This document shows positions 12,251 to 42,885 of a DNA stretch of 64,000 bases, in pieces. Made by a program: the position numbers and the translations under genes. The stretch lies in contig NZ_FRBN01000003.1 of assembly GCF_900142625.1 (NCBI RefSeq), positions 62,001 to 126,000 of the forward strand, read 5' to 3'. The stretch comes from Roseovarius marisflavi. Its GTDB lineage: Bacteria; Pseudomonadota; Alphaproteobacteria; Rhodobacterales; Rhodobacteraceae. Numbering within the stretch: the first letter of the stretch is position 1; each line of letters begins with the position of its first letter. Under the pieces are notes generated by a model, which saw nothing but the letters and a program-made list of their open reading frames with translations, ran no database searches and had not been told where the DNA came from.

Positions 12251-14284
12251 TCAGCGCCAGAATCCGGCGTAAGAGGCAAACACCCCCTGAAGCTTGGCCA
12301 GGGCGCGATTGGCGGTGCCGGCACGCGGCAGATCGCCGGTGCTCAGGCGGTCGATGACCACCTCGACCGGGCAGGCCGCGCGGGTTTTGGGATCGAAATA
12401 GCGCGGGTAGTCAATCAAACTGGCATGCACCAGTCCCTCAAGCGTTGGCGACGCGCGCCGCCGCCGGCGGGGCGGCTCTCCGAGGTCGCGGGTCAGGCCC
12501 CAGCCCGCATAAAACGGCGCACCGGTGGTGGTGACGCGCACGCCGAGCAACAACGCCTCGAAGCCCAGAAGCGAGGTCATGGTCCAGACCTCCTGAACCT
12601 GCGCCAAAATCGCGGCCGGATCGGTGCCGCCCACGACCAGATCGGCAAGAGTGTCAAGCTGCTTGGGGGCAATGGCGCCGGGGCGCAGGCCCGCTTCGAC
12701 ATCGGGATGGGGTTTATAGAGGATTACCGCCTCGGGGTTCTTGTCGCGCACCAGTTTCAGCAGCGCCAGATTGGTGTTGATCGCCCCCGCGCCAAGCCGG
12801 ATCGAGGCGTCATCCTCGACCTGACCAGGCACCAGAATGCGATGGCCGGGCGGAAGATCGGGCGCAGCCCCCCCGAGATTATACTTGCTCAGGCCAGCCC
12901 CCGTCAGGCGACGGATCAGACCTTCGGCGCGCAGCCGTTGATCCGGGCGCAGCGCGGCGCGCGCCGCGATCAGGCGCTCAAGGCGGCTCTCGCAGGTCGG
13001 ATCGTAGTAAATTCCGAGATCGTCACAGACCAGCGACAGCGGCGGCACCAGATCGGCCCCAAGCCCGCGCGAGCGCAGAAAGCCATCCTCGACACGCACC
13101 GCGCCCTCGGGGCCGACCTCGGGCTTGGAGGCCCAGACTATCGCGGGGCGATCCGGCAGCCCCTCGGCGGAACTTGGGAATTGCACCCGGCGATACTTGC
13201 CGAAAAACCGCTGCAGCGGCGCGCGTTTCCAGAGCCGCATGCCATGCGCACTCCAGCCCTTGTGGTCCTCGCGCCAGGCGCGGCTTTGGGCTTCGAGCGT
13301 GCTGATCGCGGTGTCGAGATCACATAAGGCGTCGCGATAGGGGTCGTACCATTTGGGATAAAGCAGCATCACCCCGGCAAAAAGCTGCGCCCGCGTGAGG
13401 GTGCGCGCGCGCCGGTCAAGGCGGATCGGATGGCGATCGTCGCTCAGACCCCACCCGGCATAAAAGGGCTGGCCAAAGACCCGTGGGCGGTGGCCCGCGA
13501 AAATCGCCTCGAACCCGAGCTGCGAGGTGACGGTATAAACCGCAATCGCCCCCTCCAGCAGGGAAAACGGGCTTACCGGATCGCTGAACAGGGTGATGCG
13601 GTCGCTTTGATCGCTGGCGCTGAAATAGCCCGGGCGATGCCCGGCATCGGTTTCTGGATGGGTTTTGATCAGGATGCGCGCGCCGGGGTTATCCTCTTGG
13701 GCATAGTAGAGCATCTCGCGAAAGCTGTTGGCATCGGCCCCGCCACGGGTCACGCTGGCATCGCCGCGGGTCTGGTCGATCACCAGAACATAGCCCGGAT
13801 CGGGGCAGGGATGGTTTGGGTCAAAGGCGTTGTATTTTGACAAATGGGCCTCGGCGAGGCGCGCGATGCCTGCGCGCGCGCAGTCCAACAGGGCGGTGTC
13901 ATCCAGCGGATGCGTCTTGAGAATGTGTTCAAGATCAGAGGGTTGCGCGCTGTCGAATGCCGCACCGCGATGGTCGATCACAAGGCCGAGCGGCGGCTCG
14001 CCGTCGCGCCCCGGATGAACCGAGCGCAGGAAGGCATCCTCAACCCGGATCAGGCCCGCCCCGGTGCGCCGGGCCATGGCCTCGCCGCGATGCGCATAGG
14101 GGCTGTGGCCCCAGACCGCGATCAGGTCATCGGCGCCGGGCGTGCCAAGCGTCAGGTCATAGCCTGCAAGCGACAGGATGCGGGACACGCGGCGCTGGCG
14201 CAGAAATCCGGCGTTGTAATAGAAAACCCGCCGGGATGTGGTGGTCCCGGCGGGGTCAGATCTGCGGGCGGTGTCAGAGTCCAC
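12251..14284 (-). CDS. kpsC: Capsule Kdo-linker glycosyltransferase KpsC-like (two GT modules)
   Basis: KpsC builds the poly-beta-Kdo linker on which group 2 type capsules are assembled, at the cytoplasmic face of the inner membrane. The 677-residue protein has the expected duplication. The N-module shows DQTRGDAS and KTHPETDAGH, then TSQLGFEAIFAGHRPRVFG. The C-module shows PGQVEDDASIRLG and KPHPDVEAGLRPG, then TSLLGFEALLLGVRVTTTG. The open frame extends to a TTG at 14332, but that would overlap the upstream gene by 59 bases. The GTG at 14284, overlapping the upstream stop by 11 bases, is preferred. Converges with sauT. Confidence 0.87.
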   Translation of the reverse strand: MDSDTARRSDPAGTTTSRRVFYYNAGFLRQRRVSRILSLAGYDLTLGTPGADDLIAVWGHSPYAHRGEAMARRTGAGLIRVEDAFLRSVHPGRDGEPPLGLVIDHRGAAFDSAQPSDLEHILKTHPLDDTALLDCARAGIARLAEAHLSKYNAFDPNHPCPDPGYVLVIDQTRGDASVTRGGADANSFREMLYYAQEDNPGARILIKTHPETDAGHRPGYFSASDQSDRITLFSDPVSPFSLLEGAIAVYTVTSQLGFEAIFAGHRPRVFGQPFYAGWGLSDDRHPIRLDRRARTLTRAQLFAGVMLLYPKWYDPYRDALCDLDTAISTLEAQSRAWREDHKGWSAHGMRLWKRAPLQRFFGKYRRVQFPSSAEGLPDRPAIVWASKPEVGPEGAVRVEDGFLRSRGLGADLVPPLSLVCDDLGIYYDPTCESRLERLIAARAALRPDQRLRAEGLIRRLTGAGLSKYNLGGAAPDLPPGHRILVPGQVEDDASIRLGAGAINTNLALLKLVRDKNPEAVILYKPHPDVEAGLRPGAIAPKQLDTLADLVVGGTDPAAILAQVQEVWTMTSLLGFEALLLGVRVTTTGAPFYAGWGLTRDLGEPPRRRRRASPTLEGLVHASLIDYPRYFDPKTRAACPVEVVIDRLSTGDLPRAGTANRALAKLQGVFASYAGFWR

Positions 14285-15428
14285 TGCCGCCAAGCGTATC
14301 GCCTGCGGTCGAGACCGAGCCGACGGCACCAAGCGTGCCGGTGAGGGCCGCGATGACCTTGGCCCATTGGGCGAAGGGGGCTTCTGTCACATAGATCGTA
14401 TCATCGTCGCGGATCGCGAAATCACGCGCGACAAACATGCCGTTTGGCTTGGTCAGGTCAAGGACATAGATCATCCGCTGCGCGCCGACGAGATCGCCGC
14501 GCGCAAGCACCTGATTGGCAATGTCGGCCGGTTCGTTGCGCAGCACGAACACGCCGGTCGGATCGGCGGCGGTGGTGGTCAGGCCACCGACCTGCGCAAT
14601 CGCCTCAATGGCGCTCAGGGTTTGGGTTTCAAAGGTCACGCGGGCCTGTGCGCCGGTTGCGCCAAGCGCGGTATAGGCGCGGGTATCAGCTTCGACCAGA
14701 ATCCGGTCGCCACCGCGAAGCGCGATGTCAAACTGCGGGTATTTGTACAGATCCCGGAACCAGACCTTGCTGCGCTTGTCGCCCCGAATCACGGTGATCT
14801 GAGCCACTTCGGGTTCGATCGCGATACCGCCTGCCGAGGCAATCATGTTGGAGAGTGTGCGCGTCGGGCGTTCAATCGGATAGACACCCTGTCCGGTGAT
14901 CGCCCCGCTCAGCGACACGGTCGAGCCGTTGCCCGCAAGACGGCGCACCTCGACCTGGGGGTCCGGGGTTTGCTCGTCAAGCTTGGTGGTGATGATGCGG
15001 CGGATGCCCTCGGGCGAGTTTCCCGCGGCGCGGATGCGGCCCGCATAGGGCACAAAAATAAAGCCCGAGCCGTCAACCTGTACCTCTTCCAGAATGGTCT
15101 GGCTTGAGGCCTCGCCGGCCAGAAGCCCGTCATCGACGTTCTCCCAGATCGTCAGGCCAAGCGTGTCGCCGGGGCTTATCGTATCAGACCCTAGCAGGCC
15201 TGCGTTCTTGAAATCATCGGTGAACCCAAGCGCTGGCTGCACCGCGGTGGCGCGGGTCACCCTGTCGTTCACGCTCACTACAAAGGCGTCGCCCTGTCGC
15301 TGAACCGAGCCTGAGTAGATCTCGCGCTTGCTGGGCCCGACACGTGGCAGGACGCCACAAGAGGCGACGATTGACACAATGGCCAAAGCTGCGACGGGCT
15401 TCGCCCATCGGAAATGTTGGGATTTCAC
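14274..15428 (-). CDS. Polysaccharide export outer-membrane lipoprotein (OPX, Wza/KpsD family)
   Basis: A 384-residue outer-membrane polysaccharide export protein. The signal peptide ends in a lipobox, SIVASCGVL, placing the lipidated Cys near residue 24. The export domain is at about 83-180 (TISPGDTLGLTIWENV; VDGSGFIFVPYAGRI) and is followed by SLBB repeats (VSLSGAITGQGVYPIERP). A C-terminal hydrophobic segment (WAKVIAALTGTLGAVGSVS) would be the barrel or membrane helix. It lies between kpsS and kpsC on the same strand, so it is the likely exit pore for the same capsule. The KpsM/T transporter and KpsE partners are not in the window. Confidence 0.88.
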   Translation of the reverse strand: MKSQHFRWAKPVAALAIVSIVASCGVLPRVGPSKREIYSGSVQRQGDAFVVSVNDRVTRATAVQPALGFTDDFKNAGLLGSDTISPGDTLGLTIWENVDDGLLAGEASSQTILEEVQVDGSGFIFVPYAGRIRAAGNSPEGIRRIITTKLDEQTPDPQVEVRRLAGNGSTVSLSGAITGQGVYPIERPTRTLSNMIASAGGIAIEPEVAQITVIRGDKRSKVWFRDLYKYPQFDIALRGGDRILVEADTRAYTALGATGAQARVTFETQTLSAIEAIAQVGGLTTTAADPTGVFVLRNEPADIANQVLARGDLVGAQRMIYVLDLTKPNGMFVARDFAIRDDDTIYVTEAPFAQWAKVIAALTGTLGAVGSVSTAGDTLGGSGL

Positions 15429-15523
15429 TGCTCGGTCTCCTCGACCTGTTTTTGTTCTGCCTCAGTTTTTTTGTCAACCTACAGGAATCGTAAGTTAAAA
15501 TCCAGCGTTACCGAGGTCAGAGG

Positions 15524-16906
15524 TCAGGGGACAATCCGCAACTGTTGCCTTGGGGCCGCGGTGCCGGATTCGAGCGCGTCATAGGGGTCTTCTGGTGCCA
15601 GCATCATATCGACCGCTTGACGCAGCAATTGGCGCCGCCCTTGCGCCGAGTAAAAACCGCCGGCAATCTGGCTGGTTTCAAGCAGATAGCGGCGATAATC
15701 GGTATAGGCGCGCCGGTCCGGGCGTTCGGCCCCGGCAAAGAAGTCGCGCAGCGGTTTGGTGCTCACAAACTCGGGTTTGGCATAGACTGCCTGTCCGAAA
15801 GTGCGCAGCGGAATGCCGCGCCAGAGCACCTGTTGCGCGGCCGTGGAATTGACGGTGACCGCGCTGCGCGCCTCATCCAGAAGTTGTGCAAGCTTGCCGC
15901 CGCGCACATAATGCACCCGCCCCTTTACCCCGTGCGCACGCACCAGACGGCGCAGCTCGGCGCGGATCGGGGCGCGGCCATCTTCAAGCGGATGCGCCTT
16001 GATCACCAGATGATGATGCGGCGGCGCCCCAAGGGCAAAGCCCTCGATCACGGTTTCCAGAAACTCGGTCATGCTTGAGAACGGCGAATGCGACTGAAAA
16101 GACGAGTCATGTTCAAGCTGTAGCAGGGCAAGGTGATAGGGAAAGCCGCCATGGCGGATGCGCCAGGTGGCGAGGCGGCGCTCGATCGCCTGAAGCGGCA
16201 TCAGCAACAGACGCTTGATATAAAGGTGAAATTCCTCGCGCACGCTCAGCGCGCGATGCGGGCGGAAATTGCGATAGCGCCGGTTCGCGAGCAGGACAAA
16301 GCCGTGGTAAAGCGCGCCATAGAAGATATGCTGACGCATGTCGCCCCAGCTTGCCGGCGGCAGGGCGGTGTCCATATCCGAGGTTTCCAGCGCCGCGCGC
16401 ATCTGCGGCACGCTCATTTCCATGAGCTTTGAGTTGCCATTGGTTCCGTCACGCTCGTAGGTGACCCAATAGGGCCGCATATAGCCCTCTTCATAGACAT
16501 GCACCGTCAGCCCCGCGTCGCGCGCAATCGCCACGGCCTGTGCGTGAATGGGGCGGGTGTCGCCGTAAAGCACGATATCGGTGATGTTTTTGTTGGTCAA
16601 AATTTGGCGAAAGGCCTCGGGCCAGTCAAGCGCGCTGCCGGTATAGGGGATATAGGTCTTGGCGTCGCGCCAGAAGGCCTGATCGCCGGCGTTGAAACCG
16701 ACACGCCAGACCTGCGCATTGGCCCGGCGCAGCATCTGCCCGAGTTTCTGAAAAAATGGCCCGTGCGGCCCCTGAAGAAACAGGAACGCGCGGTTTTGCC
16801 CGGTCAGACCTGTCATGGCCTTTGCTGTCCCTTTCCACTCGCCACGCCCCTCATAGCGCAGCATTTCGGCAAAAATAAGCCCTGCAATGCGCCCCTCGCT
16901 TGCCAT
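15524..16906 (-). CDS. kpsS: Capsule polysaccharide Kdo transferase KpsS-like
   Basis: KpsS adds the first beta-Kdo to the lysophosphatidylglycerol acceptor of capsule. The 460-residue protein has LFLQGPHGPFFQKLGQMLR (about 42-60), YEEGYMRPYWVTYERDG (about 138-154), the QxxxD-type motif LQLEHDSSF (about 262-270) and KAHPLEDGRAP (about 303), all typical of the family. NSTAAQQVLWRGIPLRTFGQAVY (about 353-375) matches the late GT-B motif shared with KpsC. The first 30 residues are weakly conserved, and translation may begin at the Met before TGLTGQNRAF. It lies 95 bases upstream of the OPX gene in the same direction. Confidence 0.87.
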   Translation of the reverse strand: MASEGRIAGLIFAEMLRYEGRGEWKGTAKAMTGLTGQNRAFLFLQGPHGPFFQKLGQMLRRANAQVWRVGFNAGDQAFWRDAKTYIPYTGSALDWPEAFRQILTNKNITDIVLYGDTRPIHAQAVAIARDAGLTVHVYEEGYMRPYWVTYERDGTNGNSKLMEMSVPQMRAALETSDMDTALPPASWGDMRQHIFYGALYHGFVLLANRRYRNFRPHRALSVREEFHLYIKRLLLMPLQAIERRLATWRIRHGGFPYHLALLQLEHDSSFQSHSPFSSMTEFLETVIEGFALGAPPHHHLVIKAHPLEDGRAPIRAELRRLVRAHGVKGRVHYVRGGKLAQLLDEARSAVTVNSTAAQQVLWRGIPLRTFGQAVYAKPEFVSTKPLRDFFAGAERPDRRAYTDYRRYLLETSQIAGGFYSAQGRRQLLRQAVDMMLAPEDPYDALESGTAAPRQQLRIVP

Positions 16907-33113: not shown

Positions 33114-34313
33114 TTGAAAAAGCAACTTCTTTGCACCAGCGCGATCGCACTTGGCTGCGCCATCGCTGCACCCGCATCTGCCCAGGAATGGGACATGGAT
33201 TGGGGTGGTTTCTTTAACACCCACGTCGCATACACTGACGTAGGCGGCAGCGGCGTTCTGCCCACACAGGATTTCGACGGCGTAAACGTCTTCGTAAACC
33301 GCGAAATTCACTTCACTCCCTCGGTTACGCTCGACAACGGCCTGACCTTCGGTGTGAACGTCCAGATGGAAGCTGACAACAGCAGCGCGCCGTCTTCGGA
33401 CATCGACGAAACCTACATGACCATCTCCAGCGACACGATGGGTAAAATCATTCTCGGCAACGAGAACTCGGCTGGTTACCTGTCGATGGGTTCGGTTTAC
33501 ACACCTGGCGTTGGTTCGCTTGGTATCAACTCGGGTTCGATCTCGGGCTTCATGCCGCTGACCGGTTCTGCTTACACCTTCCGTTCGGCCGCTGGTTCGT
33601 CGCTGACCGAAGTTGGCAGCAACAACGACGTTCCGCGCATCACCTACTTCACACCGTCGTTCAACGGTCTGACCGTTGGCGTTTCGTACGCTCCGAATGG
33701 CGATTTCGCCACCGGCAACGCACGTAACAACGGCGCCGTGGATCACGATGCTGCTGGTGGACTGCGTGACATCTTCGACATCGGCGCAAGCTACAAGCAG
33801 TCGTTCAATGGTGTTGATCTCGCTCTGGCCGGTCGTTACGGCACAGGCGAGCGTCAGGCACAGCCTGCCGTTGCTGCTGTTCCCGCAGTTCCTGGTAACG
33901 CCGGTACTGCTGCTATCGCAGCTGCACCCGGTGGTGATCCCGAAACATGGGGCATCGGCGCTACAGTTGGCATGAGCGGCTTCACCGTTGGTGCAACCTA
34001 TGCCGAAAACGACTCTGACGTTGCTGGCGGCGCAGGCGATCAAGAAGGTTGGAGCCTTGGCGCAACCTACGACATCCCTGGTCCGTGGACAGTTGGTCTT
34101 GACACCTACCAGGGTGAATTCAAGAACGGCGCCGGTGTCTCGAAAGACGAGTACGAAGCCTACAAACTCGGCGCATCGCGCAGCCTGGGTGCCGGCGTAA
34201 GCTGGGATGTCTATGCCATCTATGCAGAAACCACCAACGGTTCTGTCGGTGGTCTTACAGACACCAAAATCGACGCGACCATCATTGGTACCGCAATTAA
34301 CCTGAGCTTCTAA
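33114..34313 (+). CDS. Rhodobacter-type general porin (TTG start)
   Basis: A 399-residue outer-membrane beta-barrel porin. The signal peptide (KKQLLCTSAIALGCAIAAPASAQ) is cleaved near residue 23, and the chain ends with the barrel-targeting phenylalanine (AINLSF). Alternating beta strands and the loop around VGVSYAPNGDFATGNARNNG fit the Gram-negative porin family. Initiation at TTG is supported by a strong GAGGAGG seven bases ahead and by the signal peptide starting right after. An Ala/Pro-rich insert (AQPAVAAVPAVPGNAGTAAIAAA, about 253-275) is probably a surface loop. Codon use differs from neighbours, with more TTC and GGT, as in highly expressed genes. Confidence 0.92.
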   Translation: MKKQLLCTSAIALGCAIAAPASAQEWDMDWGGFFNTHVAYTDVGGSGVLPTQDFDGVNVFVNREIHFTPSVTLDNGLTFGVNVQMEADNSSAPSSDIDETYMTISSDTMGKIILGNENSAGYLSMGSVYTPGVGSLGINSGSISGFMPLTGSAYTFRSAAGSSLTEVGSNNDVPRITYFTPSFNGLTVGVSYAPNGDFATGNARNNGAVDHDAAGGLRDIFDIGASYKQSFNGVDLALAGRYGTGERQAQPAVAAVPAVPGNAGTAAIAAAPGGDPETWGIGATVGMSGFTVGATYAENDSDVAGGAGDQEGWSLGATYDIPGPWTVGLDTYQGEFKNGAGVSKDEYEAYKLGASRSLGAGVSWDVYAIYAETTNGSVGGLTDTKIDATIIGTAINLSF

Positions 34314-34334
34314 TCCGGTTAATCTAAAAATAGG

Positions 34335-34371
34335 CGGCGGGGGGTGACTTTTCCCCCCGCCGTTTTTATTT
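34335..34371 (+). terminator. Strong intrinsic terminator after the porin gene
   Basis: CGGCGGGGGG (34335-34344) pairs perfectly with CCCCCCGCCG (34353-34362), 10 bp with an 8-nt loop, followed by TTTTTATTT. It starts 21 bases after the porin stop. Confidence 0.93.
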
Positions 34372-34415: not shown

Positions 34416-35246
34416 ATGAAGAAAAGTATCGTCTGGATGGCGTCCTACCCGAAATCGGGGAACACCTGGACACGTATTTTTCTGGCCAATTATATGGCAA
34501 ATGCATCCAAACCGATCCCGATCAACAATGCGCATCGCATTGCGATCGGGGATGCGATTGCCAAGACCTACAGCATGGTGGCCGGACGGCCGATTGATAC
34601 CCAGGACATCGACCTGACGCTGCAAATGCGGCCGCGCGTTTTGCGCGGGATCGTCTCCAATAATGCCGATATCAACCTGGTCAAAACCCATAACGCCCGG
34701 ATCGTGGCGCATGGCATTCCCCTTATACCGGATGATTTGACCCGCTCGGCCATGTACATCATGCGTAATCCGCTTGATATGGTTCTGTCTTACGCGCGCC
34801 ATTACGGGATTTCTCAGGCGGATGCCTGTCATGCCGTCAGCCATCCCGACAATGTCAATATGCCGACCGAGTCGATGGTCGTGCAATTCATCGGGTCATG
34901 GTCGGACCATGTCCGAAGCTGGACCGGGAAATCGGCCTATCCGGTTCTTGTCTTGCGCTATGAGGACCTGCTGGCAGACCCGCATACGCATTTTGCCAAG
35001 GTTGTTGAACATGTCGGCTTGCCGGTCGAGCCAGAGCGTCTGGACCGCGCCATCAGGTTTGCCAGTTTCAAAGAGCTGTCGGCCCAGGAAAAAACCCAGG
35101 GCTTTGTCGAGAAATCGCAGGAAAGCGACCGGTTTTTTGCAAAGGGCACAAGCGATCAGTGGAAAACCGATCTTGAGCCGCGCCTTGTCAAAAAGATGAA
35201 ACGCGCGCATCGCAAGGTCATGACACAATTTGGATATCTCGAATGA
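34416..35246 (+). CDS. Sulfotransferase domain protein, paralogue 1 of 3
   Basis: A 276-residue PAPS-dependent sulfotransferase. The 5'-phosphosulfate loop ASYPKSGNTWTR is at about residues 9-20 and the 3'-phosphate motif MRNPLDMVLSYARHYG at about 112-127. The C-terminal KGTSDQWKTDLEPRLVKKMKRAH matches the family's PAPS-closing segment. No signal or membrane segment, so it is cytoplasmic. The acceptor is unknown and could be a carbohydrate, lipid or small hydroxylated metabolite. It overlaps paralogue 2 by ATGA, and the base composition is visibly lower in GC than in surrounding operons. Confidence 0.88.
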   Translation: MKKSIVWMASYPKSGNTWTRIFLANYMANASKPIPINNAHRIAIGDAIAKTYSMVAGRPIDTQDIDLTLQMRPRVLRGIVSNNADINLVKTHNARIVAHGIPLIPDDLTRSAMYIMRNPLDMVLSYARHYGISQADACHAVSHPDNVNMPTESMVVQFIGSWSDHVRSWTGKSAYPVLVLRYEDLLADPHTHFAKVVEHVGLPVEPERLDRAIRFASFKELSAQEKTQGFVEKSQESDRFFAKGTSDQWKTDLEPRLVKKMKRAHRKVMTQFGYLE

Positions 35247-36079
35247 CAGATATGCGGCGCATTATCTGGCTGGCATCCTATCCCAAGTCCGGCAACACCT
35301 GGACACGGATTTTCCTGGCCAATTACATTGCCAACCCGTCAGAACCGCTATCTTTGGGTGAAATGACGAAATACAGCACGGGCGATGCAATCCTTCGGCA
35401 TTACAATACAGTGGCTGGCCGTCTGATCGACCCGAAAAACTTTCCCCTGACGCTGTCTTTGCGCGACAAGGTCCTGCGCGGTATCATTTCAAACAAGGCT
35501 GATGCGTATCTGGTGAAAACGCATAGTAGCCGCAGAGCCGTGCAGGGGGTTGAGCTTATTCCCCCCAAATATACCCGCTCGGCGATCTATATTCTGCGCA
35601 ATCCTCTTGATATGGTCTTGTCGTCGGCCCGGCACTACGCAATATCGACTGAAAAGGCTGTGGAGAGCATCTCTCAAAGCGGAAAAGTCGTTCCACCCAG
35701 CGATAAAACAGTTCCGGTCGTTCAGGGGTCGTGGTCGGAGCACGTGAAAAGCTGGACCTCGTTTGCGCCCTATCCGGTGCTTGTCCTGCGCTATGAAGAC
35801 ATGCTCAGCGATCCGCAGGAGAATTTCGGCAAAATTCTCACCCATCTGGGAATCCCGATCGACAAGGACAGGCTGGACCGGGCCATTCAATTTTCCAGCT
35901 TCAATCAATTGAAAGAGCAGGAAGAAAAGACCGGCTTTGTGGAAAAGGCCGAGCATGCCGAAAGCTTCTTTGCTTCGGGTAAAAGCGATCAGTGGAAAAC
36001 CGAGCTGTCGCCTGAATTGGTCCAAAAAGTGTGCGATGCGCATCGCGACACGATGAAACGACATGGGTATCTGGAATGA
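35243..36079 (+). CDS. Sulfotransferase domain protein, paralogue 2 of 3
   Basis: A 278-residue sulfotransferase closely related to paralogue 1. It shares LASYPKSGNTWTRIFLANYIAN (from about residue 10; nearly identical in both), LRNPLDMVLSSARHYA (about 118-133) and KSDQWKTELSPELVQKVCDAHR at the C-terminus. Sequence identity by eye is well over 40% along the whole length, so the pair comes from a recent tandem duplication. Its start overlaps the first gene's stop by ATGA, and its own stop overlaps paralogue 3 the same way. The acceptor substrate is unknown. Confidence 0.88.
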   Translation: MTDMRRIIWLASYPKSGNTWTRIFLANYIANPSEPLSLGEMTKYSTGDAILRHYNTVAGRLIDPKNFPLTLSLRDKVLRGIISNKADAYLVKTHSSRRAVQGVELIPPKYTRSAIYILRNPLDMVLSSARHYAISTEKAVESISQSGKVVPPSDKTVPVVQGSWSEHVKSWTSFAPYPVLVLRYEDMLSDPQENFGKILTHLGIPIDKDRLDRAIQFSSFNQLKEQEEKTGFVEKAEHAESFFASGKSDQWKTELSPELVQKVCDAHRDTMKRHGYLE

Positions 36080-36945
36080 GCAATCTGCGCCGCATCATCT
36101 GGCTGGCAAGCTATCCCAAATCGGGCAACACATGGATGCGCAGCCTGCTTGCGCATTACTTCATGCCCGCAGGGCAGGCGCCCGATATCAACAACCTGCG
36201 CCAATTCACCACCGGCGACACGCGTCAGGACTTTTTTGATGCGGCGGCGGGGGGGCAGTTTCGCGGCGAGAGCCTTGAGGATTGGGTCAGGATGCGCACA
36301 AAGGCGCTGCGACTGATTGCGGGGTCAAAGCCGGATTACCATTTTGTCAAAACCCACTGCCAGACAATTCGGATGTTTGATCATGACATCATCCCCCCGG
36401 ATCTAACGGCGGCGGCGATCTATATCATGCGCAACCCGTTTGACCTTGCCCCATCCTTTGCCCGCCATCAGCGTGCCGATATCGACACCGCTATCAAGAT
36501 GATGTGCTATCCAGACACAGTTATGGGCACGCCGAACGGGATTTACGACCTGTTGGGCCGTTGGGACGATCACATCAATGTCTGGAACAATGCCCCCGGC
36601 CTGCCGCATTATGTGGTGCGCTATGAGGATCTTCTGAGCCATCCGGCCAAGACCATGCGCAAGCTTCTGGAAAAGTTCCTGAGCGTCAAGGTGGAGGGGC
36701 CAAAGCTGGCCCGTGCGATCAAGGCGACAAGCTTTGAGGCGATGAAAAAGCAGGAAGAGACCCTTGGGTTTACGGAAAAACCGCAAGGCATGACCGCGTT
36801 TTTTGCCAAGGGGCAGGCGGGCGTCTGGCGCGAAGATCTGACGCCGCAGCAGGTGGGCCGTATCCGCGAGGCATTCCTGCCGACACTTGAAAAGTGGTAT
36901 CCCGAGATGCTGGCGGAAACTGCCGAATTCGCGAAAGCGGGCTAA
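36076..36945 (+). CDS. Sulfotransferase domain protein, paralogue 3 of 3
   Basis: A 289-residue sulfotransferase. It keeps ASYPKSGNTWMRSLLAHYF (about 12-30), MRNPFDLAPSFARHQ (about 118-132) and KGQAGVWREDLTPQQVGRIREAF near the C-terminus. It is more divergent than the first two, and the conserved Ser region of the 3' motif reads APSFARH rather than VLSYARH. The frame is open into the preceding gene; the ATG of the ATGA overlap is the start. GC content returns towards that of the rest of the window. The three genes form one translationally coupled unit. Confidence 0.87.
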   Translation: MSNLRRIIWLASYPKSGNTWMRSLLAHYFMPAGQAPDINNLRQFTTGDTRQDFFDAAAGGQFRGESLEDWVRMRTKALRLIAGSKPDYHFVKTHCQTIRMFDHDIIPPDLTAAAIYIMRNPFDLAPSFARHQRADIDTAIKMMCYPDTVMGTPNGIYDLLGRWDDHINVWNNAPGLPHYVVRYEDLLSHPAKTMRKLLEKFLSVKVEGPKLARAIKATSFEAMKKQEETLGFTEKPQGMTAFFAKGQAGVWREDLTPQQVGRIREAFLPTLEKWYPEMLAETAEFAKAG

Positions 36946-37035: not shown

Positions 37036-37539
37036 ATGACGCGCAAGACACTGTTCCTTCTGGGTGCAACCATTGCTCTTGCTGCCTGTACGGTGGCTCG
37101 TCCAACTGTGGTCGCTAGATTGGGGGCTGACCCGGTAGTGTCTGGCGGCACCTATAGTAGCGGCGGAGGCGTGAGCGTCGCCGTAGATGTGCGCGAAAAT
37201 AACGGAAAAACAATGCTTTGCGGCGTCTGGGCGCAAAGCCGCGCGCAATCTGTCCTGACCAATGACGTTGAGCCAAGGCTGCTTGGCTCTGGCTCTGTCT
37301 CCTTTGGTGATGACGTCTTGGTGCGTGGCCTTTTGTTCATGCCCGAGGTCGCCCCGGCACCCGAGTATGCAGGCCAGCAGGCGGGATGTGTGGTCACCGA
37401 GCGCACCTGGCAGGCAGGCGACGACACCCGCCGACCGCAAATCCATATTCCCGGACAGGTCGTGCATGTTGAAGGCGACGATATCGGAACCTTCGCGGTG
37501 ACCTTCCGTCAAACCGGCCCGGGGGCTGGCGACAGCTAG
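37036..37539 (+). CDS. Small predicted lipoprotein of unknown function
   Basis: A 167-residue exported protein. The signal peptide ends in the lipobox LAACTV (lipidated Cys about residue 18), and CGGAGGT six bases ahead supports the ATG. The mature part is rich in Gly, Val and Ala and has two further cysteines (MLCGVWAQ, about 60; AGCVVTE, about 115) that could form a disulphide. The middle SGGTYSSGGGVSVAVDVRENNGK suggests beta structure. No family was recognised. It stands alone between the sulfotransferases and the convergent cox cluster, whose coxF stop overlaps its end by four bases. Confidence 0.7.
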   Translation: MTRKTLFLLGATIALAACTVARPTVVARLGADPVVSGGTYSSGGGVSVAVDVRENNGKTMLCGVWAQSRAQSVLTNDVEPRLLGSGSVSFGDDVLVRGLLFMPEVAPAPEYAGQQAGCVVTERTWQAGDDTRRPQIHIPGQVVHVEGDDIGTFAVTFRQTGPGAGDS

Positions 37540-38321
37540 GCGGTCTCGGTCTCTGGTCGGCGCTGACCGCTTCGGCGTATCTTGATCACCTGAGCAAGGA
37601 TCGACAGCGCGATCTCATCCGGCGTTACCGCGTCAATCGCAAGGCCCGCTGGCGCGTTGATCCGCGCCAGTTCTGCCTCATCCGCACCCGCCTCGCGCAG
37701 GGTTTCTGCCAAAGTGGTGAATTTCCGGTGGCTTGCGACAAATCCGATGTAATCCGCGCCGCACCCTAGCGCGGTCTTCAACCCATCAAGATCACCCTTG
37801 CCTTGGGTCGCGACCACAACCATGCGCCGCGCGCCCGCTGGCAGCGGGCCAAGCGCTATGGCGCTGTCATGGAGGATGATGTCAAAGCTGAACGATCCGG
37901 CCAGTGCCGCCAGCGAACGCGCCACCGGCGAGGCGCCGATGATCACCAATTCGGGCTGCGGCAGGACCGGTTCGATAAACAGATCCATCGAGCCTTTGCT
38001 GGGGCATCCATTGCGTGCAAACTCTATCCCCTGATGCTCCTCGGGCGCGCCAGGCTCGTCCTCGGGGCGCAGGGATATCAGGCGCGGGGTGCCATCACCA
38101 ATTGCCGCGACGGCCGCGCGTGTCATCGCCCCGCGCACGCATCCGCCGCCGACCCAGCCCTCTGCAATCGTGCCATCCGCAAGGATAAGTGCCCGCGCAC
38201 CGGGCTTGGCCGCCGTCGCGCCGACCGTGCGCACCACCGTGGCAATCGCATAGGGGCGGCGCGCCTCGCGCAGGCGGGCGACAGCCGTTGCAATGGCGTT
38301 CTCAAGCAATTCCGGGGCCAT
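37536..38321 (-). CDS. coxF: XdhC/CoxF-family molybdoenzyme maturation protein
   Basis: A 261-residue XdhC/CoxF protein, thought to deliver or sulfurate the molybdenum cofactor of CO dehydrogenase and xanthine dehydrogenase. The N-domain has VVRTVGATAAKPGARALILADGTIAEGWVGGGCVRG (about 28-62). The Rossmann-like C-domain has PELVIIGASPVARSLAAL (about 127). Its start codon shares one base with the coxE stop (TAATG). It is the last gene of coxMSLDEF. Confidence 0.88.
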   Translation of the reverse strand: MAPELLENAIATAVARLREARRPYAIATVVRTVGATAAKPGARALILADGTIAEGWVGGGCVRGAMTRAAVAAIGDGTPRLISLRPEDEPGAPEEHQGIEFARNGCPSKGSMDLFIEPVLPQPELVIIGASPVARSLAALAGSFSFDIILHDSAIALGPLPAGARRMVVVATQGKGDLDGLKTALGCGADYIGFVASHRKFTTLAETLREAGADEAELARINAPAGLAIDAVTPDEIALSILAQVIKIRRSGQRRPETETA

Positions 38322-39505
38322 TACAACCGCTCCAGTTCGGGCTCAAGCGCGGCCAGATCGGCTAGCGTCGTGGCGGGCGCAAATAGATCGAGATAGGGCA
38401 GGGCGGCAGCCATGCCACCGGCAACCGGCGCATAATCTTTCCAGCCTTTCAAAGGGTTGAGCCAGATGATCTTGCAGCCCCGCTTGCGCAGACGAGCCAG
38501 GGCCTTTGCCAGTCTCTCGGGTGGATCAGTGTCATAGCCATCCGACAGAATGATCACCACGCTGCGCCCGTTGACGAAACGGCGCGCCGGGCCTCTGGCG
38601 AATTCATCAAGCGCCGCGCCGATCTTTGAGCCGCCGCCAAAGCCCTCGGCCAAGAGGCTCAGCCGGTTCAGCGCCCGCATCGGATCGGTGTCACGCAAAG
38701 CCTCAGTGATGCGCACAAGGCGGGTGTGAAACAGATAGGCGTCGGTGCTTTCATCCGCCCGCATCAGGCCGGACAGAAAGGCGAGGAACACCCGCGCATA
38801 GATCGTCATCGAGCCGGACACATCGCAAAGCGCCACGATCCTAATTGGGCGGTCAGGGCGGGCCTTGCGCGGCAGGGCAAGCGGCTCGCCGCCGGTCGAC
38901 AGGCTCTGACGGATAAGGCGGCGAAAATGGATCTGATCACCCTTGCGCGCCGCGCGACGGCGGCGCGAACGATGATCGCGAAACGCAGCCGCAAGGCGGC
39001 GCGCGGTGGCCTCGGCGGCGGCGATATCCTGTGGGCTGACCAGTTGGCGCATGTCCTTGCGCATCAGGTTTTCAACCTGGCTCGCGATGAGCTTGCCGGT
39101 GCCGTCGCCATCGGCGCTTGCGTGATCGGCGCCATCGTCGGGGCTATGGAGTGCACCGCGCGCACCTGCGTTTTCGCCCTGTGGGTCGCGGGTGTTGGTG
39201 GAATGCCTCTCGGTTCTGTTCTCCCTTGGCACGGCTTTTTCGCGCACCCGCCCATCGGTGCACCAATAGCTGTCAAACAGCAGGTCAAAGCGCGCGGCCT
39301 CATCGGCATTGGCGGCGCAGACCGCTTTGAGTGCAAGGTGGGCCTCGTCGGGGTCGCAGGCGGTGACATGGGTCAATGCGGCAAGCGCGGTCTGGGTCTC
39401 GCCCACCCCAAGGCGCAGGCCACTGTCGCGCAGATGTGCCATAAACCCGGCCATGCGCGCGGCGGGGCCGGTGTCGCGCGCGGCAAAGCGGGTGATCCGG
39501 CTCAT
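38321..39505 (-). CDS. coxE: VWA-domain CO dehydrogenase maturation protein CoxE
   Basis: A 394-residue protein with a C-terminal von Willebrand A domain. The metal-adhesion motif is ALCDVSGSMTIYARVF (DxSxS, about residue 228). An Arg-rich segment, RDHRSRRRRAARKGDQIHFRR, precedes it. In Oligotropha, CoxE works with the AAA ATPase CoxD to assemble the [CuSMoO2] centre of CO dehydrogenase. It overlaps coxD by ATGA and is followed directly by coxF. Length is normal for the family. Confidence 0.92.
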   Translation of the reverse strand: MSRITRFAARDTGPAARMAGFMAHLRDSGLRLGVGETQTALAALTHVTACDPDEAHLALKAVCAANADEAARFDLLFDSYWCTDGRVREKAVPRENRTERHSTNTRDPQGENAGARGALHSPDDGADHASADGDGTGKLIASQVENLMRKDMRQLVSPQDIAAAEATARRLAAAFRDHRSRRRRAARKGDQIHFRRLIRQSLSTGGEPLALPRKARPDRPIRIVALCDVSGSMTIYARVFLAFLSGLMRADESTDAYLFHTRLVRITEALRDTDPMRALNRLSLLAEGFGGGSKIGAALDEFARGPARRFVNGRSVVIILSDGYDTDPPERLAKALARLRKRGCKIIWLNPLKGWKDYAPVAGGMAAALPYLDLFAPATTLADLAALEPELERL

Positions 39506-40380
39506 GCGGCACGCCCGGCAAGACGCGCGGCCACCTCGGGCGGGATCGCCTCGCGGTCGCTTTGGGTCTTGAGCAGCGTGCCAAGTGCGGCCTGCAGGAG
39601 CACGGGGTCATGACTCAGGTCATTCACACCAAGCCCGGCAAGCGCGGCGGCAAAATCAAGCATCTCGGCAATGCCGGGGTTCTTCTCAAGGTCTTCGCGG
39701 CGCAGGGCCTGGACAAAGCCGACGATCTGCGCGGCCAGTGTGGCCTCGGTCTCGGGGGCCCTGATTTGCAGAATTGCAAGCTCTACCGCAGGTTCAGGAT
39801 AATCGCCATGCGCATAAATGCAGCGCCTGCGCAGGGCATCCGATAAATCGCGCGTGCCGTTGGCCGTCAGGATGACGATCGGCCTCGTGGTGGCCCTGAT
39901 GGTGCCAAGTTCGGGAATGGTAATCTGAAACTCTGACAGTATTTCAAGAAGATAGGCCTCAAATTCCTCATCTGCACGGTCGATCTCGTCGATCAGAAGC
40001 ACCGGCGCGACGGGCTGTCGGATGGCCTGCAAAAGCGGGCGCTCCAGCAGGTAATCGTCGGAAAATATCCGCGCCTCGACGTCTTTGCCGGTCTCGCCCG
40101 CCTCAGAGGCGGCGCGAATGGCCAAAAGCTGGCGCGGATAGTTCCACTCATAGATCGCCTGCGCCGCATCTAGCCCTTCATAGCATTGCAGACGGATCAG
40201 CATCGTATCGCGCAGGGCGGCCAGCACCCGCGCGACTTCGGTCTTGCCAACCCCGGCGGCCCCCTCAAGCAAAAGCGGGCGGCCAAGCGAGAGGGCAATA
40301 TGCACGGCCATGGCAAGATCATCGGCAGCAATATAGCCATGATCCGCCATTCCTTTCTGTAGCGCCCGCCATTCCTGCAT
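39502..40380 (-). CDS. coxD: MoxR-type AAA ATPase CoxD
   Basis: A 292-residue AAA+ chaperone. Walker A is EGAAGVGKTEVARVL (about 38-52), Walker B is VLLIDEIDRADEEFEAYLLE (about 128-147), and sensor 1 is VILTANGTRDLSDALRRR (about 170-187). In Oligotropha, CoxD is needed to sulfurate and load copper into the CO dehydrogenase active site. It is separated from coxL by 87 bases containing three hairpins, so its expression is probably lower than that of the structural genes. Confidence 0.92.
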   Translation of the reverse strand: MQEWRALQKGMADHGYIAADDLAMAVHIALSLGRPLLLEGAAGVGKTEVARVLAALRDTMLIRLQCYEGLDAAQAIYEWNYPRQLLAIRAASEAGETGKDVEARIFSDDYLLERPLLQAIRQPVAPVLLIDEIDRADEEFEAYLLEILSEFQITIPELGTIRATTRPIVILTANGTRDLSDALRRRCIYAHGDYPEPAVELAILQIRAPETEATLAAQIVGFVQALRREDLEKNPGIAEMLDFAAALAGLGVNDLSHDPVLLQAALGTLLKTQSDREAIPPEVAARLAGRAA

Positions 40381-40403
40381 GTTTATTTCACCGTTCCAAA
40401 AAT

Positions 40404-40460
40404 ACTCCGGGGGAGTCCAAGAAAATTCGGAGAATTTTCTTGGATGGGGGCAGCGCCCCC
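40404..40460. repeat. Three consecutive perfect hairpins between coxL and coxD
   Basis: ACTCC-GGG-GGAGT (40404-40416), a 12-bp stem CCAAGAAAATTC-GGA-GAATTTTCTTGG (40417-40443), and GGGGGC-AGC-GCCCCC (40446-40460) lie almost end to end. Such clustered palindromes resemble the repeated intergenic units common in Rhodobacterales. Here they would fold at the 3' end of the coxMSL message. Confidence 0.85.
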
Positions 40461-40467
40461 GTGACCG

Positions 40468-42885
40468 CTAACCGTGCAGACCAAGATCATTGGCCGCTTT
40501 CCAGATCCGCCAGTGATCATGCGGCATATGCAGCTGGCGCAACCCTAACGGGCGCAACGCGTCATGCACCGCATTGGAAAACGCCGGAACGCCGCCGACA
40601 TTCGGGCTTTCGCCCACACCCTTGGCGCCAATCGGGTGATGCGGGCTTGGGGTTTCGGTGTGATCGGTGGTGTAATGCGGCGTTTCCCAGGCCGTTGGCC
40701 AAAAGAAATCCATCAGCGTGGCGGTCTTGCAATTGCCCATATCATCATAGGCAATCTCCTGCGCCATGGCGATGGCATAGGCCTCGGTCAGCCCGCCATG
40801 CACCTGCCCCTCGATCACCATCGGGTTGATCCGGGTGCCGCAATCGTCAAGCGCATAGACCTGACGGATATGCACCTCGCCGGTATCCACATCCACATCC
40901 ATCACGCAGATATAGGCCCCGAACGGATAGGTCATGTTCGGCGGGTCATAATAGCTGACCGCTTCAAGCCCCGGCTCGACGCCCGGAATGGCCTGATTAT
41001 AGGCGGCATAGGCGATCTCGGCCATGGTCTTGAACCGCTCGGGCGCTCCCTTGACGACAAAGCGGTCGACGTCAAATTCGACATCATTGTCATGCACTTC
41101 CAAGAGGTAGGCCGCGATCATCTGCGCCTTGGCACGGATCTTGCGCCCGGCAAGGGCTGTGGCCGCCCCCGCCACCGGGGTGGAGCGGCTGCCATAGGTG
41201 CCAAGCCCGTAGGGCGCGGTATCGGTGTCGCCCTCTTCGATGGTGATGCTATCGGCGGGGATGCCGATTTCGCTGGCCAGGATCTGGGCAAAGGTGGTGG
41301 CATGGCCCTGGCCCTGGCTGATCGTGCCAAGGCGGGCGATGGCGCTCCCGGTGGGGTGAATGCGGATTTCGCAGCTATCAAACATCCCCATGCCAAGGAT
41401 ATCACAGTTCTTGACCGGCCCCGCGCCGACGATCTCGGTGAAAAAGCTAAGCCCGATGCCCATCAATTTGCGGGTCTCGCCGCGCTTGAAGGCCTCAAGC
41501 CGGGTCGCCTGTTCGGCCCGCAGCCCGTCGTAATCCACCGCCGCAAGTGCCTTGTCCCAGGCGGTGTGATAATCGCCGCTGTCGTATTCCCAGCCAAGCG
41601 CCGACTGATAGGGGAACTGATCCTCGCGGATAAAGTTGATGCGGCGCAGTTCGGCGGCGTCCATGCCAAGCTCGATTGCCAGGAGTTCGATCATGCGTTC
41701 GATGAAATAGGCGGCCTCGGTCACGCGGAACGAACAGCGATAGGCCACCCCGCCGGGCGCCTTGTTGGTATAGACCCCGTCAACGCCCACATAGGCCACC
41801 GGAATGTCATAGGACCCGGTGCAGATATGGAAAAAGCCCGCCGGAAACTTGGTCGGGTCGGCGCAGGCATCGAACGCACCGTGATCGGCGGTGACCTTGG
41901 CCTCAAGGGCGGTGATCTTGCCGTCCTTGGTCGCCGAAATCCGCCCTTTCATCCAATAGTCGCGGGCAAATGCGGTCGCCATCAGGTTTTCCATCCGGTC
42001 CTCGACCCATTTCACCGGCTTGCCGGTGACGATAGAGGCCACGATGGAACAGACATAGCCCGGATAGACCCCGACCTTATTGCCAAAACCGCCGCCGATA
42101 TCGGGGCTGACGACGCGGATGTTGTGCTCTTCGATGCCCGACAAAAGCGAGGCGACGGTGCGCACCACATGCGGCGCCTGAAAGGTGCCATAGAGCGTCA
42201 GCTTGCCGTTCACCTTGTCCATCGAGGCCACACAGCCGCAGGTTTCAAGCGGGCAGGGATGAGTGCGGTGGTAATAGATCATCTCTTCGGCCACCACATC
42301 GGCGCTGTCGATCACCTGTTCGGTGGCGGACTTGTCGCCTTCTTCCCAGAGGAAAATGTGGTTCGGGTGGCGGCGTTCGCCATGCGCACCGCTGGTCTCG
42401 CCTGCGATATCCTCGCGCAATACCACATCGCTTTGCAGGGCTTTGAACGGGTCGACGATCACCTCAAGCTCTTCGTATTCGACCTCGACGAGTTCGACCG
42501 CGTCGGCGGCGACATAGCGGTCGCGCGCAACCACATAGGCCACCTCTTGGCCTTGAAACAGCACCTTGCCATCGGCCAGCACCATCTGCTTGTCGCCCGC
42601 CAGCGTCGGCATCCAGTGCAGGCCGAGCGGCTCCAGATCCTTGGCCGTCAGCACCGCGACAACCCCGTCAAGCGCAAGCGCGGCACTGGCATCAATCGAC
42701 ACCACCCGCGCATGGGCATAGGGCGAGCGCACGAAATCGCCGTGCAGCATGCCGGGCAGCTTGATGTCATCGACATAGTTGCCCTTGCCTTGGGTAAAGC
42801 GGGCGTCCTCGACCCGCTTGCGCGAACATCCCAGGCCCTTGAGCTTGGCAACGCGGTCTTCGCGATCCGGTGTCAGGTCGTTCAT
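40468..42885 (-). CDS. coxL: Form I aerobic CO dehydrogenase, large (molybdenum) subunit CoxL
   Basis: An 805-residue molybdenum hydroxylase subunit that oxidises CO to CO2 at a Mo-Cu centre. The active-site loop reads [13 protein letters not shown] (Cys about 384), matching the form I signature AYxCSFR; form II enzymes have AYxGAGR. Further motifs are [14 protein letters not shown] (about 263), the molybdopterin-binding [15 protein letters not shown] and the late [13 protein letters not shown], which holds the catalytic Glu. It overlaps coxS by ATGA. It is the catalytic partner of CoxS and CoxM in the cytoplasm near the membrane. Confidence 0.96.

Follow-up and report, generated by a model that had tools for sequence, protein, structure and literature searches.

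Relation to described systems

Among described enzymes, the closest to the proteins studied here are Teg12, Teg14 and StaL, sulfotransferases that act on peptide antibiotics and carry motifs for 3′-phosphoadenosine 5′-phosphosulfate (PAPS); RaxST of Xanthomonas reportedly sulfates a tyrosine of a small secreted peptide. General porins (Omp32, PorB, the OmpF family and 2por) share a barrel with a long loop, L3, after the fifth strand, and L3 lines the pore constriction. We analysed three consecutive sulfotransferase (ST) genes, ST1–ST3, that follow a porin gene in a 64,000-nucleotide stretch of the Roseovarius marisflavi genome (the window; contig NZ_FRBN01000003.1, positions 62,001–126,000; Table 1). 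Gene arrangement, conservation, co-occurrence and a residue correlation are the observed basis of our proposal that these STs are porin-modifying enzymes, which would O-sulfate the porin before export, likely on a Ser or Thr of L3. Judged from sequence comparison, this reading as a whole stands just above an even chance; taken alone, the claim that the porin is the ST acceptor is probable.

As originally predicted, the three open reading frames (ORFs) are coupled by ATGA overlaps at both junctions (35243–35246 and 36076–36079), and all match Sulfotransfer_1 (PF00685) over their full length (E = 8e-28, 6e-28 and 4e-24 for ST1, ST2 and ST3; 97.9, 98.4 and 85.7 bits against a gathering cut-off of 22). 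ST3 is taken to start at the ATG at 36076, a longer GTG ORF from 36031 being a mechanical call. Matches to Sulfotransfer_3 (PF13469) were partial, above the cut-off for ST2 and just below it for ST1 and ST3. The PAPS-binding motifs are intact, also in line with the prediction: PKSGNTW, KTH, RNPxDxxxS and the C-terminal FFAxG..W are kept in the STs and are invariant or nearly so in alignments of 14 and 43 sequences; they include the 5′-phosphosulfate-binding motif (5′-PSB), the catalytic His and the 3′-phosphate-binding motif (3′-PB). ST1 and ST2 had been called close duplicates, a term that fits loosely at 55% identity (ST3 shares 38% with ST1). ST3 is 97% identical to its R. lutimaris counterpart, and the three genes are the sole Sulfotransfer_1 matches in the 4.08-Mb genome. 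In agreement with the prediction, no adjacent PAPS gene was seen in the window; the genome can probably make PAPS, because an adenosine 5′-phosphosulfate (APS) kinase domain is encoded on another contig (C47).

The ST1 model (predicted local distance difference test (pLDDT) score, 94) had Teg12 (3mgb; Z 24.4, 2.7 Å, 235 residues, 31% identity) as the best among the matches listed, followed by StaL (4eec) and mammalian SULTs, with Teg14 (3nib) also near; TPST was not among the 50 structural matches listed, an absence that excludes nothing. The window STs share the full-length fold, PAPS motifs and catalytic His with Teg12, StaL and Teg14, but belong to a porin-linked clade, and a Pfam scan of the window neighbours (porin, FAD oxidoreductase, CMD, arginine-deiminase-like, XdhC and CoxE) revealed no glycopeptide biosynthetic cluster around them. 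Asn_synthase, Transglut_core3 or Hpr-kinase-like genes were likewise not among these scanned neighbours. Such genes mark a different setting: STs of the same family beside lasso-peptide-like genes (for example, loci L246, L247 and L250), apparently peptide-directed, have other neighbours and are not placed on the porin side of the ST tree. The proposed system resembles RaxST in that a cytosolic PAPS enzyme would modify a secreted protein ahead of export, and differs in its target—the Tyr of a small peptide, as reported for RaxST, versus the proposed Ser/Thr of an outer-membrane porin.

The original prediction considered a surface glycan or a secreted sulfate ester possible; an envelope target is plausible, but the porin upstream had been overlooked. 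This gene (PF13609; E = 1e-52, 180 bits against a cut-off of 27) ends 102 bp before ST1 and is the sole intact, full-length Porin_4 match found in the genome; a second match (contig C49, 169773–170270) is short and partial with an internal stop. The porin model (mean pLDDT 79) has the general-porin fold; Omp32 (1e54; Z 25.3, 2.8 Å, 295 residues), PorB and many OmpF-type entries share first place by Z among its structural matches. A strand at 110–115, the fifth of the barrel by count, is followed by a loop at 116–174 that contains Ser140 and by a strand at 175–179, and this loop appears, in the model, to be placed like L3 in general porins. The Rhodobacter porin 2por was also found with a profile built from linked porins (E = 8e-10), the alignment extending up to the strand before what we take to be L3 of 2por. 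What would set the window porin apart from general porins is the covalent L3 sulfate proposed here, a contrast drawn from the titles of the solved entries.

Table 1 Features of the sulfotransferase locus and of the capsule region in the window
Feature	Position	Strand	Basis
Porin_4 outer-membrane porin, 399 aa, TTG start, proposed substrate	33114..34313	+	Pfam, model
Codon TCG for Ser140, loop L3, proposed O-sulfation site	33531..33533	+	column comparison
Intrinsic-terminator-like GC-rich hairpin and T-run, between porin and ST1	34332..34365	+	
ST1, PAPS sulfotransferase	34416..35246	+	ORF and Pfam
ST2, PAPS sulfotransferase, ATGA overlap with ST1	35243..36079	+	ORF and Pfam
ST3, PAPS sulfotransferase of second subgroup, ATGA overlap with ST2	36076..36945	+	ORF and Pfam
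Capsule export genes: two Capsule_synth, one Poly_export	12251–16906	minus	Pfam

Linkage of porin and sulfotransferase genes

Matches to the STs (relatives of ST3) were found in all 35 other sampled genomes of the genus, with the porin upstream in 33 (in G019 and G004, as read from match coordinates identical to those of the contigs of L034 and L037) and the locus cut by contig ends in the other two (G005 and G030); the outer neighbours of this porin–ST cassette vary between species. This conservation led us to reject recent import, which had been read from the lower GC of the first two genes. GC is indeed lower in ST1 and ST2 (53.9% and 52.2%; ST3, 57.5%; porin, 57.2%; window, 61.8%), but low GC is general in the genus, where 51 of 55 ST ORFs in loci L034–L058 lie below the locus mean. 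Beyond the genus, ST matches occur in 8 of 246 genomes of the family (E ≤ 1e-15), 99 of 386 of the class (E ≤ 1e-30) and 22 of 397 drawn phylum-wide.

Flanks were taken for 14 loci, 20 genus loci and 93 further loci, mainly from class matches above ~250 bits (most weaker class matches lie outside the sample), and 129 loci were annotated with longest ORFs as gene calls, so that neighbours are approximate. The porin lies within 500 bp upstream of the ST in 20 of 22 genus loci, the remaining two reaching a contig edge. Among the 71 other loci that score at least 330 bits against our A2 profile, 56 have a porin within 3.5 kb (45 upstream within 500 bp, 6 upstream within 3.5 kb and 5 downstream within 500 bp), 5 end at a contig edge and 10 show none. 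At 300–330 bits (n = 17), the porin was upstream within 500 bp in 6, upstream within 3.5 kb in 2 and on the opposite strand in 2, with 2 edges and 5 loci without; it was found in 1 of 16 loci at 250–300 bits and in none of 3 below 250 bits. The A2 profile was built from porin-linked STs, so the association of high score with porin is partly built in; these tallies count loci rather than genomes, and L088 and L089, second ST loci of genus members, are placed with the others. No hidden porin was found among ten neighbours at porin-less loci: seven belong to other families, and three, which have no Pfam match, look like wrong-frame calls.

An ST tree of 155 rows (from 193 ST ORFs, excluding those outside 240–420 aa and most genus members) was split by its midpoint root (89% SH-aLRT) into 18 rows, all porin-less, and 137 rows, of which 108 have a porin, 15 have none and 14 lie at an edge. 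The porin label changes 22 times on the tree against a shuffled mean of 40.5, and none of 500 shuffles was as low. The porin side holds two subgroups, one with the orthologues of ST1/ST2 of the window and one with those of ST3. The window STs are assigned to the porin-linked clade by their R. lutimaris orthologues (L034), which lie on that side, and by the porin next to ST1. Homologues always tied to another known pathway had been named in advance as an outcome that would refute the original prediction; most porin-clade homologues do adjoin a porin, but not all. Some loci combine porin arrays with one ST, others a single porin with three STs. At locus L215, which begins at a contig end, about nine tandem porin-clade ST ORFs occur with no porin in view.

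Co-occurrence across genomes extends this linkage. In the family, the window-type porin (E ≤ 1e-20) is present in 5 of 120 genomes, all five with a porin-clade ST (Fisher P = 5e-9), including G159, whose ST (L080) is on another contig than its five porin matches; the STs of two further family genomes, G095 and G197 (L081 and L082), are on the porin-less side of the tree. In the class, hand-made tallies placed a porin (E ≤ 1e-15) in 76 of 77 genomes with an ST (E ≤ 1e-90) versus 159 of 309 others. The lone exception is G459, where the ST lies at a contig end. Loosening the ST cut-off to E ≤ 1e-80 gave 76 of 81, adding G350, G353, G456 and G558 without a porin; three of these added STs (L236, L234 and L237) are on the porin-less side of the tree and L233 is not. 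Genomes with the porin but no ST are thus common and those with an ST but no porin rare, as expected if one is a modifying enzyme and the other its substrate. The porin–ST link is firm.

A porin residue that follows the sulfotransferase

In a post hoc column scan of 48 directly linked porins from outside the genus against 28 from ST-less genomes, column 452, which holds Ser140 of the window porin, came top of 236 tests (P = 3e-10; Bonferroni-corrected, 8e-8). Ser or Thr occupied it in 43 of the 48 linked porins (Asp in the other 5) versus 5 of the 28 (Asp in 12); an earlier alignment gave 43 versus 6. Held-out porins, which include relatives of the scan set and are not phylogenetically independent, repeated the pattern, with Ser/Thr in 54 of 58 linked (20 of 20 in the genus and 34 of 38 other ST-locus porins) versus 2 of 20 in a second ST-less batch (P = 6e-12). 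Among the columns ranked next, an aromatic one retained p = 0.002 in the held-out porins and the others failed to replicate. Overall, leaving out ORFs outside 290–560 aa and L034 (for which the window stands), Ser/Thr is found in 97 of 106 ST-locus porins (63 of 68 directly linked and 34 of 38 elsewhere in ST loci) and in 7 of 48 from ST-less genomes, where Asp (18) is commonest.

The same exchange is visible between paralogues of one genome. In one genus (G317, G430 and G517), the motif reads ...[S/V/A]-S-PNA... in the linked porin, with Ser, and ...N-D-PNA, N-D-PTA or N-D-NNA in the unlinked paralogue, with Asp; in G579, the linked porin reads IN-S-GD and the unlinked one LN-D-GD. Ser140 is nearly invariant in 27 porins of the genus, the motif of which also holds Ser142 and Ser144. 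Three ST-less genomes that keep Ser (G447, G471 and G552) each have one Sulfotransfer_3 match away from the porin. From these comparisons, Ser140 is a serious candidate for the sulfation site, though its chance falls somewhat short of even.

Proposed mechanism

Terminator-like sites in the region number 7 against 5.1 expected from shuffles, and the one between porin and ST1 has the longest stem. Among relatives, 63 of 71 porin–ST gaps carry a hairpin (below −9 kcal/mol with a T-run) compared with 15 of 71 after one mononucleotide shuffle per gap: 16 of 21 in the genus (shuffled, 2) and 47 of 50 in other genera (shuffled, 13). This set counts L102 twice, and in the five hairpin-less genus gaps the call may have placed the ST start too far upstream.

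We propose that porin transcription would mostly stop at this hairpin, and that read-through or an unrecognised promoter would yield smaller amounts of the three coupled STs. The cytosolic STs would then O-sulfate the still unfolded porin, with PAPS as donor, ahead of Sec export, an order suggested by the cytosolic location of PAPS and by the STs having no room for a signal peptide, given that they start a few residues ahead of the first motif. The target would most likely be Ser140, perhaps also Ser142 or Ser144 of L3; multi-site sulfation of the three by the two or three STs of the genus is possible but speculative. The mature trimer would carry sulfate esters near the constriction and be more acidic with a strong, fixed negative charge, and where the enzyme is absent the position would often be Asp, an encoded negative charge; phospho-sites and acidic residues are known to exchange in evolution. 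That sulfation alters pore selectivity is a tentative suggestion. Equally tentative is a class-wide version, in which a dedicated ST, in some lineages with its own PAPS genes, would O-sulfate an L3 Ser/Thr of the adjacent porin, and sulfo-Ser/Thr would be swapped for Asp on enzyme loss.

Alternative explanations

Several points weigh against the proposed porin sulfation, with synteny, shared ancestry and helix capping as live confounders. The enzyme–substrate link is inferred, and Teg/StaL and SULT enzymes mainly sulfate phenolic or small-molecule hydroxyls, not an aliphatic Ser in a protein. The 10 porin-less loci among the 71 high-scoring ones count on the same side, as do Asp in 5 of 68 directly linked porins and the 14 of 21 Ser/Thr (6 Asp) in paralogues outside the ST locus of ST-carrying genomes. 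With the tree controlled for, 13 well-supported independent pairs gave Ser/Thr with the ST locus in 4.9 on average, against in 0.1 and equal in 8 (median p 0.06, range 0.03–0.38); against ST-less genomes alone, 6 pairs gave 4.0 versus 0.1, the control for Asp gave 0.1 versus 2.3 (p 0.5), and that for paralogues in ST-carrying genomes 2.4 versus 0.3 of 10 (p 0.5). Tree-controlled support for the Ser140 column is therefore suggestive, not decisive. In the model, Ser140 directly precedes a short helix (141–145), so that Ser, Thr and Asp may be N-caps; capping would explain the Ser–Asp exchange, not why the exchange follows the ST. Furthermore, 63 of the 67 linked loci counted beyond the genus set carry at least one gene of a single housekeeping block (LeuRS, DUF3576, an Ala_racemase_N protein that we take to be YggS, and a YkuD L,D-transpeptidase), so most non-genus linkage is one ancestral arrangement. 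The shared block, the weak tree-controlled support and the position of Ser140 at a helix start speak for a rival reading, in which the linkage would be frozen synteny, the Ser/Asp pattern would come from N-capping and shared ancestry, and the acceptor would be an unrelated small molecule or lipid. The block's own history argues otherwise. In the 43 loci showing both DUF3576 and YggS, the ST lies between the two in all and is joined there by the porin in 40; the block was not seen in the examined DNA of the 20 linked genus loci, nor in that of L079, L162, L165 and L228. In the genome of the window, contig C72 still has DUF3576, YggS and the L,D-transpeptidase as a group, and tblastn matched neither an ST nor a porin across these 3.3 kb (the DUF3576 and YggS matches are 333 bp apart, part of this being an unmatched DUF3576 end). 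As the block persists there without the pair, porin and STs left it together, or were lost and regained together, while the other three genes stayed. Porin type and ST also co-occur across genera, and the column replicates in held-out porins; we regard the synteny explanation as rather improbable.

Sulfation of an envelope glycan or lipopolysaccharide, with the porin adjacent as both serve the outer membrane, would suit the general tendency of bacterial STs to act on glycans, and the genes for the capsule named as the possible acceptor in the original prediction are real (12–17 kb of the window; Table 1). We found nothing that ties the STs to them; in relatives, by contrast, the gene that repeatedly adjoins the STs is a porin, and sulfation of a glycan predicts no porin residue that tracks the ST; the identified members of the 15 commonest neighbour clusters are not glycan-synthesis genes, a weak argument given at least 4 unassigned clusters. 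A glycan acceptor thus seems unlikely. The conserved pairing of channel and enzyme, with PAPS genes beside some pairs, could also mean that an ST-made sulfate ester leaves or enters through the porin, which would then not be a substrate, but the general-porin fold, the lack of obvious scaffold-making genes among identified neighbours, and the variable gene dosage (one ST with an array of porins, or three STs with a lone porin) make this very improbable. The STs might, on the other hand, sulfate the porin on Tyr or on residues other than Ser140, since linkage names no residue and RaxST is said to sulfate Tyr; at p < 1e-4, no column scored for Tyr alone told linked and unlinked porins apart, and we consider this, too, unlikely. 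A Tyr-rich or acidic porin signature was rejected, as Tyr, Ser, Thr, Asp and Glu contents are similar in linked and unlinked porins.

PAPS genes and other neighbours

Of 129 loci, 12 (L163, L180, L181, L182, L195, L198, L200, L202, L210, L214, L224 and L225) have a homologue of CysD and/or CysN–APS kinase no more than a few kb from the ST; in L180 and L195 it directly follows the ST, in the order porin–ST–CysD–CysN/APS kinase. The domains were confirmed in 10 of the 12 (L202 and L225 by similarity alone), and weak GTPase matches in L209 and L213 were left out of the count; three of the loci (L182, L202 and L214) run into a contig edge, and no porin is visible in L198. These genes support PAPS-dependent activity in a porin context and do not name the acceptor. 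In L198, parts of CysD, CysN and APS kinase appear to be fused, and in L181, L182 and L224 the APS kinase stands beside a reduced CysN part.

Some of the pairs have further enzymes of protein-modifying types nearby: TPR–Sulfotransfer_3-like proteins in 10 linked loci by similarity (Pfam-confirmed in L232 and L210, and also in the porin-less L171), 2OG-Fe(II)-oxygenase-like genes in 6, of which those of L192 and L194 were confirmed by Pfam, and JmjC_2 between porin and ST in 2. The loci concerned (L232, L235, L192, L194, L172, L175, L178, L183, L210, L160, L086, L159, L169, L181, L196 and L224) are possibly wider porin-modification islands. In L172, L175, L178 and L183, the linked porin has Asp at the Ser140 site and the oxygenase-like gene lies beside the ST on the opposite strand; the oxygenase lead, which also took in L192 and L194, was dropped for too few lineages. 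TPR–GT41 (O-GlcNAc-transferase-like) proteins accompany the ST in L173 and L185, where no porin is visible. Porin-less relatives occur in lasso-peptide-like clusters with Asn_synthase (L246 and L250) or Transglut_core3 (L247), and Hpr_kinase_C matches were obtained in L081, L240, L245, L246, L248 and L250, only that of L245 above the Pfam cut-off; sulfated or phosphorylated lasso peptides are possible for L081, L240, L245–L248 and L250. As context rather than proof, such neighbours are a hint that this part of the ST family may act on peptides or proteins.

Within the window, a GAGGAGGG-type ribosome site precedes the TTG start of the porin (33114–33116), an unusual start for a presumably abundant porin; TTG ahead of the KKQ signal-peptide start occurs 19 times in L034–L058 (among 12 examples, the ATG matches fall inside ST3). 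Immediately 3′ of ST3, a small protein (37037–37539), lipoprotein-like by eye and without a Pfam match, resembles a family that is present at 13 genus loci and was absent from all other loci examined. On the minus strand, 37536–42885 holds XdhC and VWA_CoxE by Pfam, then an ATPase and a large subunit that resemble MoxR and CoxL by eye, forming a carbon-monoxide-dehydrogenase-type cluster (its MoxR/CoxL part by eye).

Significance

Porin sulfation is not the subject of any of the titles and abstract openings listed in our literature searches, and, within these searches and to our knowledge, neither Ser/Thr sulfation of a bacterial protein nor a covalently charged porin constriction has been described. 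If the proposal is correct, this would be an unusual kind of protein modification and an addition to those known, one that standard proteomics can miss, as sulfate readily comes off or is taken for phosphate; it would also give a function to orphan ‘sulfotransferase domain’ genes. A major porin type of many Alphaproteobacteria would then differ from the protein encoded by its gene, with a pore that carries enzyme-added sulfate, and the permeability of the outer membrane would be coupled to the PAPS supply of the cell. Permeability, ion selectivity and recognition by phages and predators would accordingly be seen in a new way in these widespread bacteria.

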